39,588 nt of DNA from an uncultured Clostridia bacterium (GTDB lineage: Bacteria > Bacillota > Clostridia > TANB77 > CAG-508). Location: positions 1-39,588 of the forward strand of contig CALXEV010000015.1 in the NCBI GenBank assembly GCA_944387425.1. The letters run 5' to 3'. The translations under genes and the position numbers were made by a program. The stretch's first letter is position 1. Every line of letters starts with the position of its first letter. Positions 2,296 to 38,054 of the stretch are shown piece after piece. The notes under the pieces are model-generated. The model was not told where the DNA came from and made no database searches. It worked only from the letters and a program-made list of their open reading frames with translations.

Positions 2296-4491
2296 CTACT
2301 TTTTCCTACTTACATCATATACACTATCAATTTTTCTTAATTCTCTTATGATTTTATTTAAGCTTTCTAAACTATCTGTTTCAAGTGTAACATCTGTTAT
2401 TGCTATCCTTTCTTTTGTTGCTTTAGCATTTACTCCTAAAAGTTTTGCTTTTGAGTCATTTATTTTTTGTACAATATCTGCTAATAATCCATTTCTATCA
2501 TTTGCAGATATTTCAATTTCTACTGTATATGTTACTTTTTCTTGATTATACCAATGTACTTCTATTATTCTATTTTCTTCTTTTAATAGTTCATTTACAT
2601 TTACACAATCTTTTCTGTGAACAGATACTCCTCTTCCTCTTGTTATGTATCCTATTATTTCGTCTCCTGGAAGTGGGTTACAGCATTTTGATAGTTTTAC
2701 TAAACAGTTATCTATCCCTTTAACTACAATTCCTGAACTTGATGGTTTTGTTTTATTAGCTTTAAGTGTTGATAATTCTTCAATTTTTTCTTCTATTGGT
2801 TCTTCTTTATGTTCTTTTCTATATTCTATCAACATTCTTGCAATAATTTTTGTAGCAGTCATTGCGCCAAAACCAACAGCAGCATACATCTCGTCAAGGT
2901 TCTTATAGTTATATCTTTCTAACATAGGTTCAATATATTCTGTTTTGAATAAATTAGCATATGCAACTCCTATTCTTTTTAGTTCTCTTTCAATGGCTTC
3001 TTTACCTTTTTCTATGTTTTCTGTTTTATTTTCTTTTTTAAACCATTGCTGAATTCTATTTTTTGCAGTTGTACTTTTTACAAATTTTAGCCAATCCATA
3101 CTTGGTCCTTTTGAATTGTCAGATGTGATTATTTCTACAATATCACCATTTTTTATTGGTGTTATTATTGGAACCATTTTACTGTTTATTTTCGCACCTA
3201 CCATGTGATTTCCTATTTCTGCATGTATACTATATGCAAAATCTATTGGTGTGGCTCCTCTTGGAAGAACTTTTATTGCTCCTTTTGGAGTAAATACATA
3301 TACTTCATCTTCAAATAGTTCTGTTTTTAGTGTTTCTAAAAATTCTTGAGGATCTTGCATTTCTTGTTGCCATTCTAGTGTTTCTCTAAGCCATGCTAAC
3401 TTATCTTCTTGTACTGATACAACTTTTTGTCCTTTTCTACTTCCATAATTAGCTTCTTTATATGCCCAATGTGCTGCTATACCATATTCAGCTATTCTAT
3501 GCATGTCCCATGTACGTATTTGAACTTCAAATGGTGTTCCTTTTTCACCTAAAAGAGTTGTATGTATTGATTGATACATATTTGTTTTTGGAACAGCTAT
3601 ATAATCTTTAAATCTTCCTGGCATAGGATTGTACATTTCATGTACTACACCTAGTGCTGCATAACAATCTTTTACTGAGTTTACTATTATTCTTAATGCA
3701 AATAAATCATAGATTTGGTCTAATGTTTTATTATCTCTTTGCATTTTTCTATAAATGCTATATAAATGTTTTGCTCTTCCTGTTACTTCTGCATCTAAGT
3801 GTTGCTTTTTTAATTGAACTCTAATGTCAGCCATTATTTTTTCAATAAATTTAAGTCTTTCTTCTCTTTTTTGTTCTATTCCTTTTATTAATTCTCCATA
3901 TTCTTCAGGATGTAAATATTTAAACCCTAAATCTTCAAGCTCCCATTTTAAGCTATACAAACCAAGTCTATTAGCAAGAGGTGCATATAATTGCATTGTT
4001 TCTTTTGCAATTGCTATTTGTCTATCTCTTTTTAAGAATTCTAATGTTCTCATATTATGCAATCTGTCAGCTAGTTTTATTATTATTACTCTAATGTCTT
4101 TTCCCATTGCTAAGAACATTTTTCTATAATTTTCTACTTGGTTTTCTTCAATTGTTGTGTGTTGTAACATTTTTAATTTTGTTACACCATCAACCATTTC
4201 TGCAATTTCTTCACCAAATTCTTTTTTTATGTCTTCATATGTTACTTCTGTGTCTTCAACGACATCATGCAATAATGCTGCACATATTGTTTTTTCGTCA
4301 AGTCCTAGTTCAGCTATAGTGTATGCAACATTTGTTGGATGTATTATATATGGCTCTCCGGATTTTCTTGTTTGTCCTTCATGTTTTTGAGAAGCATAAT
4401 TATATGCTCTTTGTATTAATCTTGTGTCTGGCCATCTTTTATTTTTTTTCACTCTATCTGTTATGTCTTTTATTGTATAATTTTTTGTCAT
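2296..4491 (-). CDS. rel: Bifunctional (p)ppGpp synthetase/hydrolase
   Basis: This 731-residue protein makes and hydrolyses the stringent-response alarmone (p)ppGpp and acts at the ribosome. An N-terminal HD hydrolase domain has His51 and the HD pair at 75-76 (LLHDVVEDT). A synthetase domain follows, with the motif RFKDYI. RxKD is typical of bifunctional Rel, whereas ExDD marks synthetase-only RelA. A TGS domain (about 390-450, VYVFTPKGAIKVLPRGAT) and a C-terminal ACT domain (about 655-731) complete the full-length architecture, and the HD residues are intact. The start has a GGTG site 5-7 nt upstream. recJ lies 83 nt upstream, and most of that gap is a long palindrome of the repeat family seen elsewhere in this window. 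Confidence 0.97.
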   Translation of the reverse strand: MTKNYTIKDITDRVKKNKRWPDTRLIQRAYNYASQKHEGQTRKSGEPYIIHPTNVAYTIAELGLDEKTICAALLHDVVEDTEVTYEDIKKEFGEEIAEMVDGVTKLKMLQHTTIEENQVENYRKMFLAMGKDIRVIIIKLADRLHNMRTLEFLKRDRQIAIAKETMQLYAPLANRLGLYSLKWELEDLGFKYLHPEEYGELIKGIEQKREERLKFIEKIMADIRVQLKKQHLDAEVTGRAKHLYSIYRKMQRDNKTLDQIYDLFALRIIVNSVKDCYAALGVVHEMYNPMPGRFKDYIAVPKTNMYQSIHTTLLGEKGTPFEVQIRTWDMHRIAEYGIAAHWAYKEANYGSRKGQKVVSVQEDKLAWLRETLEWQQEMQDPQEFLETLKTELFEDEVYVFTPKGAIKVLPRGATPIDFAYSIHAEIGNHMVGAKINSKMVPIITPIKNGDIVEIITSDNSKGPSMDWLKFVKSTTAKNRIQQWFKKENKTENIEKGKEAIERELKRIGVAYANLFKTEYIEPMLERYNYKNLDEMYAAVGFGAMTATKIIARMLIEYRKEHKEEPIEEKIEELSTLKANKTKPSSSGIVVKGIDNCLVKLSKCCNPLPGDEIIGYITRGRGVSVHRKDCVNVNELLKEENRIIEVHWYNQEKVTYTVEIEISANDRNGLLADIVQKINDSKAKLLGVNAKATKERIAITDVTLETDSLESLNKIIRELRKIDSVYDVSRKK

Positions 4492-4511
4492 AATATCACC
4501 TTCTTATATTT

Positions 4512-4572
4512 TTTGCCATAGGGACGTTCCTTAATGACAAATTTGTCAACAAGGACCGTCCCCTGTGGCAAA
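4512..4572. repeat. 61-nt palindromic repeat between recJ and rel
   Basis: The two arms (TTTGCC-N-GGGACG-N-TCCTT and its complement) surround the perfect centre TGACAAATTTGTCA (4535-4548). It fills nearly the whole recJ-rel gap. In the sense direction of rel, the second arm reads AAGGAACGTCCC then TGGCAAA. This resembles the AAGAACCGGCACC/TGCCAAA unit found before asd, ileS and others, so I take it as a head-to-head relative of that family. It could fold as a strong hairpin in the recJ-rel mRNA. Confidence 0.8.
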
Positions 4573-4574
4573 TT

Positions 4575-6263
4575 TTAAATAGACTTCATAATGTCTTTTA
4601 TATTAATTTGCAAATTATCCACTCCATTGAAAGAATTTATTTCAAGGTTTCCAACAACATCTATCTTATCTCCTATTTTATATTCAGATGATAAGTAACC
4701 TAGATTAAATCCTATGGCATTTACGATGTTTTTCTTATCTTTTAATGTTAATTTTAAATGTTTACCTTCTGATAATGCTCTAATAGAATCTATTCTTAAA
4801 TTTTTGAATGCAAATATTGGCATCTTGTTTCCTTCTCCATATGGTTCAAGTTCTTTTAAACTATTTACCATATCTTTATTTATTTCGTCTAATTCTACTT
4901 GTGCATCTATATTTAATATTGGTACTATCTCTTCAATATGTTGCTCTTTTGCTATTTCTTCTAATTTATTTCTAAATTCGTTGAACTGTTCTTTTTTTAC
5001 ATTTATTCCAACAGCCATTGAGTGTCCACCAAATTTATTTATTGTATCTTTACATTCTGTAAGTGCCTTATATAAATCAAATCCTGGAATACTTCTTCCT
5101 GAACCTTTTCCATGGTCATCTTCTTCACATAGCAAAATACTTGGTTTAAAGTATAGTTCAGTAATTTTTGATGATACAATTCCAATCACACCATGATGCC
5201 AATTTTTTCCCATTACTACTATTGTGTTCTTTTTGTCTAAATCGTCTTTATCAATTATTTCGATTGCTTCATTATATATGTTTTTTTCTATATCTTGTCT
5301 TTCTTTATTATATTCATTTAATTTTTCTGCTAATTTAATAACTTCGTTGATATCTTTTGTTGTAAATAATTTTAATGCATCTTCTTGATGTCCCATTCTA
5401 CCACAAGCATTTATTCTAGGTGCAACTCCAAATGAAATTGTTGTAGAATCAATTTGTTGATATCCTGATAGTTTTAATATTTCTCTTAAGCCTAAATTTC
5501 TTGTTTGTGATACAAGCTTCAATCCTAATTTTACTATTACTCTGTTTTCATCTTCTAATGGAACTATATCTGAAATTGTTCCTACACATACAATGTCTAA
5601 GTATTTTAAATATTCTTTTTCATCTAAGTTTAATTTTATACTTAATGCTTGAATTAGTTTAAAAACTACTCCTACACCTGCCAAATTTCTACATGGATAT
5701 TTATTGTCTTTCCTTTTTGCATCAACTACTGCAAGTGCTTTAGGTAGTTCATTTCCCGGTTCGTGGTGGTCTGTTACTATTGTTTCTATTCCAAGCTGAT
5801 TTGCATAGTCTATTTCTTCTATTGCAGAGATACCACAGTCTACTGTAATCATCAACATATATTTTTGTTTTGATATTTTTTCTATGGCTGTTTTGTTTAG
5901 ACCATATCCTTCATTTAATCTATTTGGTATATATTCATCAACGTGAATTCCTCTATCTTGAAAAAAACTTTTTAGTACAGTTACACTTGTTATTCCGTCA
6001 ACATCATAATCCCCATATATTATTATTTTTTCGTTATTTTCTATTGCTTTTAAAATTCTATTTACTGCACTTCCCATATCTGGCATTAAAAATGGATTAT
6101 AAAAGTCTGTTCGTTTTGGGTCTAAGAATTTTTTTATTTGCTTTTCTTCTATTATACCCCTATTTGATAATATTGTTGCTAATAATTTATTTATATTATA
6201 TTTTTCTTGTAATTCTTTGATTTTTTCATAATCTGATTGATATATCTGCCATTTTTTGTTCAT
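4575..6263 (-). CDS. recJ: Single-stranded-DNA-specific exonuclease RecJ
   Basis: RecJ is a 5'-3' single-strand exonuclease used in recombination and mismatch and base-excision repair. The 562-residue protein is close to the usual length. It has the DHH phosphoesterase motifs YGDYDVDGITS (near residue 81), TVDCGISA and TDHHEPG, and the DHHA1 motif GGHSMAVG. A C-terminal OB-like domain follows, ending with a beta-rich stretch. The start ATG lies behind AGAGGA. It is the first gene of the recJ-rel-MBL-spoIIP run. The gap to recA upstream contains the recA terminator and a possible extended -10 promoter for this gene. Confidence 0.96.
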   Translation of the reverse strand: MNKKWQIYQSDYEKIKELQEKYNINKLLATILSNRGIIEEKQIKKFLDPKRTDFYNPFLMPDMGSAVNRILKAIENNEKIIIYGDYDVDGITSVTVLKSFFQDRGIHVDEYIPNRLNEGYGLNKTAIEKISKQKYMLMITVDCGISAIEEIDYANQLGIETIVTDHHEPGNELPKALAVVDAKRKDNKYPCRNLAGVGVVFKLIQALSIKLNLDEKEYLKYLDIVCVGTISDIVPLEDENRVIVKLGLKLVSQTRNLGLREILKLSGYQQIDSTTISFGVAPRINACGRMGHQEDALKLFTTKDINEVIKLAEKLNEYNKERQDIEKNIYNEAIEIIDKDDLDKKNTIVVMGKNWHHGVIGIVSSKITELYFKPSILLCEEDDHGKGSGRSIPGFDLYKALTECKDTINKFGGHSMAVGINVKKEQFNEFRNKLEEIAKEQHIEEIVPILNIDAQVELDEINKDMVNSLKELEPYGEGNKMPIFAFKNLRIDSIRALSEGKHLKLTLKDKKNIVNAIGFNLGYLSSEYKIGDKIDVVGNLEINSFNGVDNLQINIKDIMKSI

Positions 6264-11101: not shown

Positions 11102-11146
11102 GAAAAATCGTTCAACAAAATTCGACAAAGTTGTTGTAAAAAAGAG

Positions 11147-11207
11147 CAAAAAAGAACCGGCACCAAATGAAAAATGACAAAAAAGAACCGGCACCAAATG
11201 CCAAATT
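11147..11207 (+). repeat. Two tandem leader repeats before asd
   Basis: Two copies of CAAAAAAGAACCGGCACCAAATG lie with a 31-nt period, the second ending in CCAAAT about 30 nt before the asd start codon. Their orientation is the same as that of the gene. Confidence 0.85.
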
Positions 11208-11237
11208 TAGAATATATATACATATAAGGAGGAAAAC

Positions 11238-18956: not shown

Positions 18957-19044
18957 GCATTTGGGGCCGGGGCTTTTTTGTCATTTTGACAATTGGTGCC
19001 GGTTCTCTTTTGCTTTTTTGGCATTTGGTGCCGGTTCTCTTTTG
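18957..19044 (-). repeat. Three tandem leader repeats before the activase gene
   Basis: Copies start near 18957, 18989 and 19021 with a 32-nt period. Read with the gene, the two distal copies contain AGAACCGGCACCAAATGCC-like sequence. The copy nearest the gene is degenerate (GCCCCGGCCCCAAATG) and merges with the ribosome-binding region. Orientation follows the gene. Confidence 0.85.
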
Positions 19045-19061
19045 TTCAATTTAATTATTTT

Positions 19062-22894: not shown

Positions 22895-22958
22895 CATTTG
22901 GTACCGGTTCTTTTTTGCCATTTTTCTATTTTGACATTTCGTGCCAATTCTTTTTTGC
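22895..22958 (-). repeat. Two degenerate leader repeats before the ABC transporter
   Basis: CATTTGGTACCGGTTC (22895-22910) and CATTTCGTGCCAATTC (22935-22950) are diverged copies with a 40-nt period. Orientation follows the gene. Confidence 0.75.
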
Positions 22959-34794: not shown

Positions 34795-37700
34795 TCATTG
34801 ACATTTTTCGACATCAAGCATTAGCTTTTCTCCGTTTATTGAAACTTCTGTATATGTATCTTTTTTAGCATTATATTCAACTTTTTCGGCCAAAGTTTCT
34901 TTCATTATTTCTTTTTCGAATTTTTTAACAACAGCTTCTAACATTGAATTTTCTGCAACATATAATGTTATTTTGTCTAATACTTCAAACCCTTTATCTT
35001 TTCTCATATTTTGAATTTTAGATAAAATTTCTCTTACATATCCTTCTTCTTTAAGTTCAGGTGTTATTGTTGTATCTAGCACTACACCAATTTCTCCTTC
35101 ACCAGCAAATGCAAAACCTTCTTTTCCTTGCATTGTAACAAGTAAATTTTCAGAATTTAATGCTATTTGAGTATCATCTATATCAATATATTCTACTCCA
35201 CCATTTTTTACTTTGTTTGCCAAGTCCATTTGGTTCATTTTGTTGATAAATTCTCTTATTTTAGGAATCAATTTTCCATATTCTTTTCCTAAAACTGGTA
35301 GGTTTGGTTTTATTTCGAAATGTACATAGTCAGACATATTAGCACCTAATTCTACTTCTTTTACATTTAATTCTTCTTTAACTATATTACCATAATATTC
35401 AGGTAATGTATCAACAGAAATTAACATTTTTGAAAGTGGTTGTCTGTTCTTCATATTTGATGTATTTCTTGCACTTCTTCCAAGTTTTACTATTGAATAT
35501 GCTAAATCCATCTCGTTTTCTAGTTTTTTATCTATTTCTTTTTCGTTTACTTCTGGCCATAAACATAAATGTACACTTTCTGGAGCTTTTGAATCTAAAC
35601 CAACAACTAAATTTTGATATATTTCATCTGTCATAAATGGTACAAATGGTGCTGAAACTTTTACTAAGTTTACTAATACTCTATATAATGTTGTATATGC
35701 TCCTATTTTGTCATCTGTTAATTCTTCTCCCCAAAATCTTTCTCTGTTTGTACGTACATACCAATTAGATAATGAGTCAGTAAATTCTCCTATTTGCATT
35801 GCTGCTGATGTTATATCATATTTATCTAATTTTTCAGCAACTTCTTTTATTAAAGTATTTAATTTTGATAAAATCCATTTATCCATTATATTTTCAGACT
35901 CGAAGTCTTTGTAGTTTAAAGGATTAAATTTATCTATTTCTGCATATAGAACATAGAATGAATATACATTCCATAATGTACTTAAAAATCCTCTTTGTGT
36001 TTCTTGTACATTTTTAATTCCTAATCTTTTTGGTAGCCAAGGACTACTGCTTACATAAAAATGCCATCTTGTTGCATCTGCTCCTACTGTATCTAATAAT
36101 TCTATTGGGTCTACACCATTTTTCTTTGATTTAGACATTTTTTGTCCATGTTCATCTAATACATGACCTAAAACTATACAGTTTTCGTATGATGCTTTAT
36201 CAAATAAACAAGTTGATATTGCAAGTAATGTATAGAACCATCCTCTTGTTTGGTCAACTGCTTCTGAGATAAATTGTGCTGGAAAATGTTTTTCAAACTC
36301 TTCTTTATTTTCAAATGGATAATGTAGTTGTGCAAATGGCATAGAACCAGAATCAAACCAACAGTCTATTACTTCTTTATATCTTGTCATTTCTTTTCCA
36401 CATTCAGGGCATTTTAAATGCACATTATCTATATATGGTTTATGTAATTCAATATTTTCAGGACAATCAACTGCTTTTTCTTTTAATTCAGCTATACTTC
36501 CAATACATTCTTCATGACCACATTCGCATTTCCATACAGGTAATGGAGTTCCCCAATATCTATCTCTTGATATTCCCCAATCTATTACATTCTCTAAGAA
36601 TTTTCCAAATCTTCCTGTTCTTATTGTATCTGGATACCAATGTATTGTATTGTTGTTAGCAATTAATTGGTCTCTTAGTTTTGTCATTGCAACAAACCAA
36701 CTTTCTTTTGGGTAATATAAAAGTGGTGTATCACATCTCCAACAATGTGGATATGAGTGCATATGTTTTTCTTTTGAGAATAATTTTCCTTGTTCTGCAA
36801 GCCATTTACAGATATCTTCATTGCAATCTCTTACAAATCTTCCTGCCCATGGCTCAACTTCTGGAACAAATTTGCCTGATTTATCTACTAAATTTACAAA
36901 TGCTATTCCATTTTGTTTACAAGCAATACTATCATCTTCACCATATGCTGGAGCCATGTGTACAATTCCTGTACCTTCTTCTTTTGTTACAAAGTCTCCA
37001 TGAATTACTTCAAATGCTTTTCCATCTACTTTAGCAAATGGCATTAGTTGTTCATATTTTACTCCTACTAGTTCTGTTCCTTTAAATTCTCTTATTATTT
37101 CATATGGTGTTTCTCTTAATACTGGTTCTAATAAATCTTTTGCTAATATATAATTTTCATATTTTGGCTCATCATCTGTTCCAATATTTGCTTTCACTTC
37201 AACATATGTATAAGCTTTGTTTACACATAGTGCTAAATTTGATGGTAATGTCCATGGGGTTGTTGTCCATGCTAATATATATGTATTTTCTTTTCCTTCT
37301 ACTTTGAATTTTGCAATACATGTTAAATCTTTAACATCTTTATATCCTTGTGCTACTTCATGTGATGATAAAGCTGTTCCACATCTTGGGCAATATGGCA
37401 TTACTTTATGACCTTCATATAATAATCCTTTTTTCCACATTTCTTTTAAAGCCCACCATACTGATTCTATATAATCATTATGATATGTAACATATGGATG
37501 TTCCATGTCTACCCAAAATCCTACTTTGTTTGTCATTTCTTCCCACATTTTTACATATGTGAATACACTTTCTTTACATTCTTTTACGAATTTTTCTACT
37601 CCATATTCTTCAATTTGTTCTTTTCCTGATATGCCTAGTTTTTTCTCTATTTCTAGTTCAACTGGTAATCCATGTGTGTCCCATCCAGCTTTTCTATCTA

Positions 37701-37935
37701 CATGGTAACCTTTCATTACTTTGTATCTTGGGATAATGTCTTTCACTACTCTTGTTTCTATATGTCCTACATGTGGTTTTCCATTTGCTGTTGGTGGTCC
37801 ATCATAAAATGTGAAATATCTTTTTCCTTTATTCATGTCAAAGTTTTTTTGGATGATTCCTTTTTTCTTCCACATTTCAGCAACTTCTCTTTCCATTCCA
37901 ACAAAGCCATTTTTTAATTCTACTTTTTTATACAT
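34795..37935 (-). CDS. ileS: Isoleucyl-tRNA synthetase, IleRS2 type
   Basis: This class I synthetase charges tRNA-Ile. The 1046-residue protein from the ATG at 37935 (AGGAGG upstream) has HVGH (55-58), [18 protein letters not shown], the editing domain and KMSKSKK (near 600). It also has zinc-ligand cysteines ([18 protein letters not shown]) and a C-terminal DUF5915-like region. This layout is that of IleRS2, often found in bacteria with low mupirocin sensitivity; that property is not shown here. It is preceded by a DUF1653 gene under an isoleucine T-box and by three tandem family repeats. Confidence 0.96.
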
Positions 37936-37958
37936 AAATATACCTCCTATCATTTTCA

Positions 37959-38054
37959 TTTTGGCATTTGGTGCCGGTTCTCTTTTGTCATTTTGGCATT
38001 TGGTGCCGGTTCTCTTTTGTTATTTTGGCATTTGGTGCCGGTTCTCTTTTGTCA
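37959..38054 (-). repeat. Three near-identical 32-nt tandem repeats before ileS
   Basis: Three copies of GGCATTTGGTGCCGGTTCTC-type sequence (plus strand) lie at exact 32-nt spacing, almost identical. Read with the genes, the array begins at the TGA of the DUF1653 gene (AAATGACAAAAGAGAACC) and ends about 24 nt before ileS. It is the best-preserved array in the window. Confidence 0.9.

Follow-up and report, generated by a model that had tools for sequence, protein, structure and literature searches.

The closest described counterparts of the repeats reported here are the TIRtrons, for which part of the account by Di Nocera (2013, PMC3733652) describes a Y1 transposase gene (TIRYT) bracketed by non-GTAG inverted repeats (TIRs). 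According to the same part, TIRs form moderately abundant dispersed families that occur as singles, dimers or clusters, and several TIRYT/TIR pairs per genome are reported for Stenotrophomonas. These traits recur in the genome studied here. The TIR core treated in those sections is of a GGGG type with the motif GGGGWSAS; our family A (GGGGACGG) agrees with it at 7/8 positions and our family B core differs. Neither family carries the full motif, several relatives show GGGGACA[CG], and because in that part of the paper only some TIRs have the motif, its absence does not exclude TIRYT membership. Our case differs from the TIRtrons in its Clostridia host, in arms that vary by lineage and in two families interleaved in shared arrays.

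The GTAG REPs and REPINs of Proteobacteria, in the parts of three papers that deal with them (Bertels and Rainey 2011, PMC3116915; PMC3733652; PMC6006769), are short, high-copy palindromes that stand singly or in inverted pairs, with RAYT genes flanked by their own units and the two diverging together, all of which resembles what we find. The conserved tag here is instead a GGGAC-type core inside the unit, and family B prefers direct 32-nt tandems; the consensus sequences (61 A units, 110 B units) have no GTAG or GTGG 5′ of the hairpin foot. CGTC REPs have the letters CGTC in common with our units, and part of PMC3733652 gives these as an unpaired end tag with no associated transposase. We rejected the CGTC class, as CGTC is here internal to the core and RAYTs are associated. 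The phyla for which part of PMC3733652 lists GTAG and CGTC repeats are others than Firmicutes, a word absent from that paper. A literature search, with many journals outside its reach, returned no report of A or B units, and its matches to unit sequences were unrelated, to judge by their titles apparently chance matches to primers. The system behaves like the TIRYT/TIR kind and most probably belongs to it; the defining features of GTAG REPs, of CGTC REPs and of the REPIN layout are absent here.

On the enzyme side, part of Quentin (2018, PMC6006769) describes RAYT group 1, or TnpA-Y1 subclass 2.1, by a Y---NP motif, a long C-terminal extension, low copy number and helix-turn-helix matches in some members; the RAYTs analysed here resemble it in these points, with the helix-turn-helix matches obtained at a permissive threshold. 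The same part assigns 20/26 TIRYTs to subclass 2.1 and states that REP-like sequences near the genes of this subclass were found by neither automatic nor manual search.

Here we analyse an element between recJ and rel in an uncultured gut Clostridia bacterium. It is very probably an inverted pair of REP-like units from a family that depends on a resident HUH/Y1 protein, RAYT-A.

Two related repeat families

The window, meaning the whole 39,588-nt stretch of DNA that was analysed, contains at 4512-4572 a 61-nt palindrome with GGGACG/CGTCCC arms and a TGACAAATTTGTCA centre, separated by 2 nt from the recJ stop (4575-4577), all as the initial annotation had described it. The rel start (ATG) is 20 nt away from it. 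A refinement is that the palindrome consists of two ~30-nt units in inverted orientation, every unit itself an imperfect palindrome, of a family that we denote A (approximately TTTGYCA-NN-GGGACGNNCCTT-NN-TGRCAAA; Table 1). Folded as RNA in the sense of rel, 4505-4580 reaches −36 kcal/mol, against a mean of −12.9 (sd 2.7, z −8.7) for shuffles, of which 0/200 attain that energy. Rfam gave no family at its gathering score in the window, and no terminator was called on either strand of the recJ-rel locus.

Table 1. Repeat units and adjoining genes located in the window
Feature	Position	Strand	Basis or remark
Family A unit 1, TTTGCCA-TA-GGGACGTTCCTT-AA-TGACAAA	4512..4541	+	sequence, genome copies
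Family A unit 2, inverted; minus strand reads TTTGCCACAGGGGACGGTCCTTGTTGACAAA	4542..4572	-	sequence, genome copies
recJ, upstream of the element (name from the initial annotation)	4575..6263	-	C-terminus used as anchor in relatives
rel, 731 aa, downstream of the element (name from the initial annotation)	2296..4491	-	
Likely rel ribosome-binding site AAGAAGGTG	4497..4505	-	inferred from sequence; 6 nt from hairpin base, element-free
Family B tandem pair, 31-nt spacing	11137..11213	-	
Family B tandem array, 32-nt spacing, first copy diverged	18957..19045	+	
Two family B units, 40-nt spacing	22895..22958	+	
Family B tandem array of three, 32-nt spacing	37964..38052	+	directly upstream of minus-strand gene 34795-37959

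The genome (G000) comprises 1.416 Mb in 48 contigs. The half-unit pattern of the palindrome occurs in it at 95 places with at most 3 mismatches, against 19 for the reversed pattern, and the strict full-unit A pattern has 38 matches against 0 for the reversed control, so the recJ-rel palindrome is not a product of chance. A blastn search with the 91-nt region gave 59 genome matches at E ≤ 10, palindrome strands being counted apart. The tandem AAGAACC-GGCACC repeat noticed earlier also proved real, its core (family B) being present at 108 places against 1 for the control.

We catalogued 61 family A units (GGGACG core) and 111 family B units (GGTGCCGGTTCT core) in 214 kb of stretches of this genome around pattern hits, rather than by a whole-genome scan. 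Palindromic A units matched on both strands were counted once, and one A pattern hit (C15:30007), a chance match inside a gene with no arms, was dropped before counting. Unit midpoints are intergenic for 52/61 A and 91/111 B units, compared with a background of 14% intergenic by crude gene calling in the same stretches.

The two families differ in layout (Fisher p = 6e-4; 4e-5 with palindromic units taken as inverted). Among neighbours within 50 nt, A-A pairs are inverted in 5 cases, include a palindromic unit in 2 and are direct in 3, beside 32 single-unit A clusters (a number that includes the chance match dropped later), and B-B pairs are direct in 38 cases, mostly 32 nt apart, and inverted in 2. 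We rejected the REPIN on these counts, since two inverted units are the usual element neither for A (5, or 7 with the palindromic cases, against 3 direct and 32 singles) nor for B (2 against 38). A-B neighbours lie in the same orientation in 12 cases and in opposite orientation in 1, the spacing being 30-34 nt with two exceptions, and a B-A-B block of ~75 identical nt is found at both C4:470 and C8:15249 within unrelated outer flanks.

Both families have a TGNCA arm, a AAGRACCGNCMCC core and a second TGNCA arm. When the consensuses are aligned, A and B prove related rather than two unrelated families, the alignment being beaten by 1/2000 shuffles only. The initial annotation had suggested one family with two layouts. 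Kinship stands, on the shared layout, the aligned consensuses and the mixed arrays; the single family gives way to two, each with its own layout and its own RAYT. They are not one family because each lies beside a different RAYT, on opposite sides of a 100/100 split in the RAYT tree described below. At the variable arm position of A units, 16/34 combinations are Watson-Crick against 17.3 expected if independent; this lack of co-variation gives no sign that pairing within a single unit is maintained.

The three tandem B units near the end of the window lie in or near the 5′ leader of the gene next to them. The window also contains, at 81-211, an AT-rich inverted repeat with 44-nt arms that are 77% complementary and 43 nt apart.

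RAYT genes and the units around them

A Pfam Y1_Tnp search identified two proteins in the genome. RAYT-A (C2:12815-13555, 247 aa) is single-copy; an A unit precedes its first ATG by ~34 nt, and the next A units are ~0.65 kb downstream, past a gene that we take from its sequence to be acetyltransferase-like. RAYT-B (C3, 258 aa) is bordered on either side by two B units at 32-nt spacing. The two proteins share 38% identity over 144 aa and score 83.2 (RAYT-A, above) and 56 (RAYT-B, below) against the NCBIfam REP_Tyr_transpos cut-off of 80. Both contain HUH and Y-x-x-x-N-P, as do 69/69 RAYT ORFs from the loci analysed below, and a profile of 29 RAYTs compared with solved structures had TnpArep 4ER8 as its sole match. 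HTH_23, HTH_11, HTH_24, HTH_19 and HTH_28 each match 4/29 RAYT members at a permissive threshold (E ≤ 0.1), and the RAYT-A C-terminus matches only HTH_19 (E 0.41) among helix-turn-helix models. Each gene is flanked by units repeated elsewhere, as is typical of RAYTs, RAYT-B on both sides and RAYT-A by one close unit. The mark of a TIRYT, a non-GTAG inverted bracket that is also a dispersed family, is likewise present, one-sided at close range for RAYT-A, for which no 5′/3′ inverted match was scored.

Across related genomes, NF047646 matched 40/55 at E ≤ 0.001, our own included, and 3/55 exceeded the REP_Tyr_transpos cut-off. We fetched 72 loci (two of them our own RAYTs again), 69 with a RAYT ORF; L194-L196 were excluded as the ORF was absent. 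Genes with flanks of 250 nt or more at both ends were scored, and one counted as bracketed when its 5′/3′ inverted match exceeded in length the second-highest value among 62 mismatched pairs. By this measure 49/62 RAYT genes are bracketed by inverted matches, and 10/62 have a direct match. CGTCCC occurs in 81/138 RAYT flanks against 2.7 expected from Markov resampling, and with longer flanks 52/69 loci are bracketed, 44 of these with GGGAC. For a second set, RAYTs close to RAYT-A were used to fetch loci of named uncultured Clostridia; after removal of 5 duplicates and 5 loci with short flanks from 80, brackets were found at 49/70 genes, with a GGGAC core in 46/49. These Clostridia RAYT loci look like the subclass 2.1/group 1 branch, from which, as described, they differ in the bracketing units found at these genes in both sets.

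The arms of the flanking units are lineage-specific (TGTCA, TGAGACA, AGGGATT, GGACA and others), and the core varies less. A tree of the 69 RAYTs separates clades of 27 and 42 (100/100), placing RAYT-A in one and RAYT-B in the other. Unit distance and RAYT distance are modestly correlated (Spearman 0.27), a value that 0/2000 permutations equalled, and the nearest unit neighbour belongs to the same RAYT clade for 47/52 loci, compared with a mean of 25.7 and a maximum of 40 after shuffling.

The RAYTs themselves occupy shared chromosomal addresses: a neighbour gene common to at least three loci adjoins 52/74 RAYTs (L125-L193, L373-L378). Twelve have a radA-like gene downstream and others adjoin comFC-like or tilS-like genes, and RAYT-B resembles the G076 and G073 RAYTs in its downstream sequence, which looks like an aminoacyl-tRNA synthetase gene; we read these names from the peptides and take them as presumptive. 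The RAYTs of G029, G076 and G073 are each 60% identical to RAYT-B, that of G029 being closest in the first set of 69, and the units of the G076 and G073 RAYTs have cores that differ from the B core. Such shared addresses make it likely that RAYTs are inherited vertically as the units turn over. At one locus, L378 (G071), a tandem array of ~20-nt GGGACCGACCCC units stands directly after the RAYT stop.

Unit number follows RAYT number. The core GGGGACRNNNC has a median of 50 copies in the 38 genomes with a RAYT (a hit of at least 55 bits) and of 3 in the 17 without (Mann-Whitney p = 2e-7), and core copies correlate with RAYT number over the 55 genomes (Spearman 0.78) and within the genus (0.69). 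Most genomes of this low-GC lineage have one to four RAYTs. G019 is the only genome without a RAYT hit that has a high unit number (42 core copies, genome 79% complete). The other exceptions are G012, with a RAYT, 2 copies of the core used in the search and another core in the units that flank its RAYT, and G029, whose RAYT also goes with a different core. Family A is nearly private to our genome (38 strict matches, with 2 in G009, 1 in G030 and 0 in the other 55/58 genomes). In the same 58-genome comparison the B core occurs 84 times in our genome, 173 times in G029, 8 in G071, 2 in G003, 1 in G066 and 0 in the other 53.

Taken together, high copy number, intergenic position, brackets around RAYT genes, co-variation of units with RAYTs, copy number across genomes and the differing units at recJ-rel (next section) argue that the units depend on RAYTs, and A and B most likely form a REP/RAYT-type system of the TIRYT kind, putatively mobile. 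Counted against this are the one-sided close unit of RAYT-A, the RAYT-B score below the NCBIfam cut-off, the lack of co-variation in the A arms, the modest RAYT-unit correlation and the exceptions G019 and G012.

By analogy with TnpAREP and IS200/IS605, the RAYT would recognise the unit as a single-stranded hairpin, cut it at or near the conserved core and pass copies into other intergenic, single-stranded targets. The variable arms may give lineage specificity, with the GGGAC core as common tag, and tandem and mixed arrays could arise by recombination between neighbouring units. At the locus studied, a pair would have landed after the recJ stop and left the rel ribosome-binding site undisturbed; once transcribed it should form a strong hairpin between the cistrons, which might shield the recJ and rel segments of the mRNA locally or set them apart. 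The closest relatives compared are other species, with gaps too diverged to define a junction, and among them we saw no excision, copying or empty site. More tentatively, and with somewhat less than even confidence, we propose that vertically kept RAYTs at a few fixed addresses each drive their own repeats, GGGAC serving as a catalytic tag and the arms as a rapidly changing code for specificity that diverges together with the RAYT, and that recJ-rel is a landing site used more than once.

What hosts gain from RAYTs, which are domesticated transposases, is still unclear. If the reading given here is true, REP/RAYT biology would extend to a RAYT branch reported without REP-like units. The ~140 RAYT loci (69 and 70 usable), each with its own diverging unit, offer a natural set for finding the bases that the enzyme reads.

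The recJ-rel gap across the genus

The rel gene is present in 58/58 genus genomes. We read 56 recJ-rel loci, of which 3 lacked a recognisable recJ C-terminus, leaving 53 gaps; at some loci the rel start went unrecognised, and a stretch of fixed length was read there. A broad core pattern (regular expression) had no match in 44/53 gaps, many of them short, with little beyond a ribosome-binding site. The pattern flagged 9/53, and inspection by eye identified 4 GGGAC-core pairs (L197, L199, L200, L207), in our own genome, G076, G073 and G016, of differing types. The gap of G055 (L348) contains a single unit. Other hairpins or long GTCCC stretches were seen in the gaps of L208, L344, L352 and L366, of which L344 resembles L366, and the gaps of L210, L216 and L218 measure ~350-590 nt and lack the core pattern, possibly containing other inserts.

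In two of these species the pair matches the flanks of the resident RAYT. The G076 gap unit has 35 exact nt in common with that genome's own RAYT flanks, and that of G073 has 25 nt. Since unit types differ by species and most gaps have none, the element is dispensable at recJ-rel in most species.

A variant of our preferred explanation holds that an ancestral recJ-rel unit was rewritten in each lineage by gene conversion to the resident type, in place of separate insertions. In its favour, a CCCAAATTTCCCAAATT tract is found at the same position in the G076 and G073 gaps, and the rel proteins of our genome, G076 and G073 are closely related (86-88%). Against it, the gaps of G029, which has the most similar rel (89%), and of G071 (rel 83%) contain no unit, and our gap carries an A unit where those of G076 and G073 match their RAYT-B-related locus. 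We regard rewriting as possible, with the odds against it; G076 and G073 may nevertheless have inherited a recJ-rel pair in common.

Dispersed bidirectional transcription terminators between genes are an unlikely description of the units. They would fit the mostly intergenic position of A units, and a T-run of at least 4 lies within 9 nt after the A arm in 23/61 and 16/61 units (two strands) against 11% of sampled positions, a background not limited to AT-rich intergenic DNA. However, T-runs flank both sides in 8/61 units only, convergent genes are not clearly enriched (A: 36 tandem, 12 convergent, 4 divergent; background: 103, 27 and 18), the recJ-rel locus yielded no terminator call, and the linkage to RAYTs would be left unexplained.

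The initial annotation had proposed that the hairpin tunes rel. As a cis-regulatory element specific to rel, an attenuator or stability element that tunes expression of the ppGpp synthetase, it would account for a fold of this strength between recJ and the rel ribosome-binding site and for the strong palindromic pairs seen by eye in the gaps of four species. As a conserved function the proposal fails on the gaps without a core-pattern match, that of the relative with the closest rel among them. A units also occupy some 60 other places in the genome, unit sequences differ between species and a terminator-like site was not found at the locus, and we consider such a regulator improbable, a little more so than terminators. 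The idea that the units are operator or nucleoid-type sites for a DNA-binding protein, with the RAYT linkage incidental, could draw on their imperfect palindromes and on the permissive HTH_23 matches in RAYT-like proteins, and is made very improbable by the RAYT brackets in two sets and the co-variation with RAYT phylogeny and copy number.

The inverted pair of RAYT-dependent units most likely landed beside rel rather than serving as a dedicated rel control element; a modest local influence of its hairpin on recJ/rel mRNA is possible. Strong intergenic hairpins in these genomes, the one before rel included, may be repeat copies, and their annotation as regulators needs a test.

An extra C in rel of relatives

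The relatives' rel genes also drew attention for a feature inside the coding sequence. In a number of them an extra C lies between the positions of residues 238 and 241 of our rel (GAAGTNACA-C-GGAAGAGC; ACA CGG), causing a +1 shift with a stop in the 0 frame shortly after. It occurs at L363-L368, L379-L383 and L385-L390 (G074, G015, G026, G018, G002, G069 and further genus members), and the pattern is present in 17/194 genus genomes. Twelve such loci were read, 11 of them in rel context; the pattern in G154 (L384) lies outside rel. The extra C was read in rel for G002 and G069 and at the rel frame break for G010, and G126 and G129 were counted by pattern alone. Around it, nearby synonymous positions vary between species, and in the sampled ORFs CGG belongs to the least used arginine codons. 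The extra C is a candidate programmed +1 frameshift in this stringent-response gene, with the GAAGTTACACGGAAGAGC region as the candidate site, or alternatively a shared old lesion. The rel gene of our own genome is intact.
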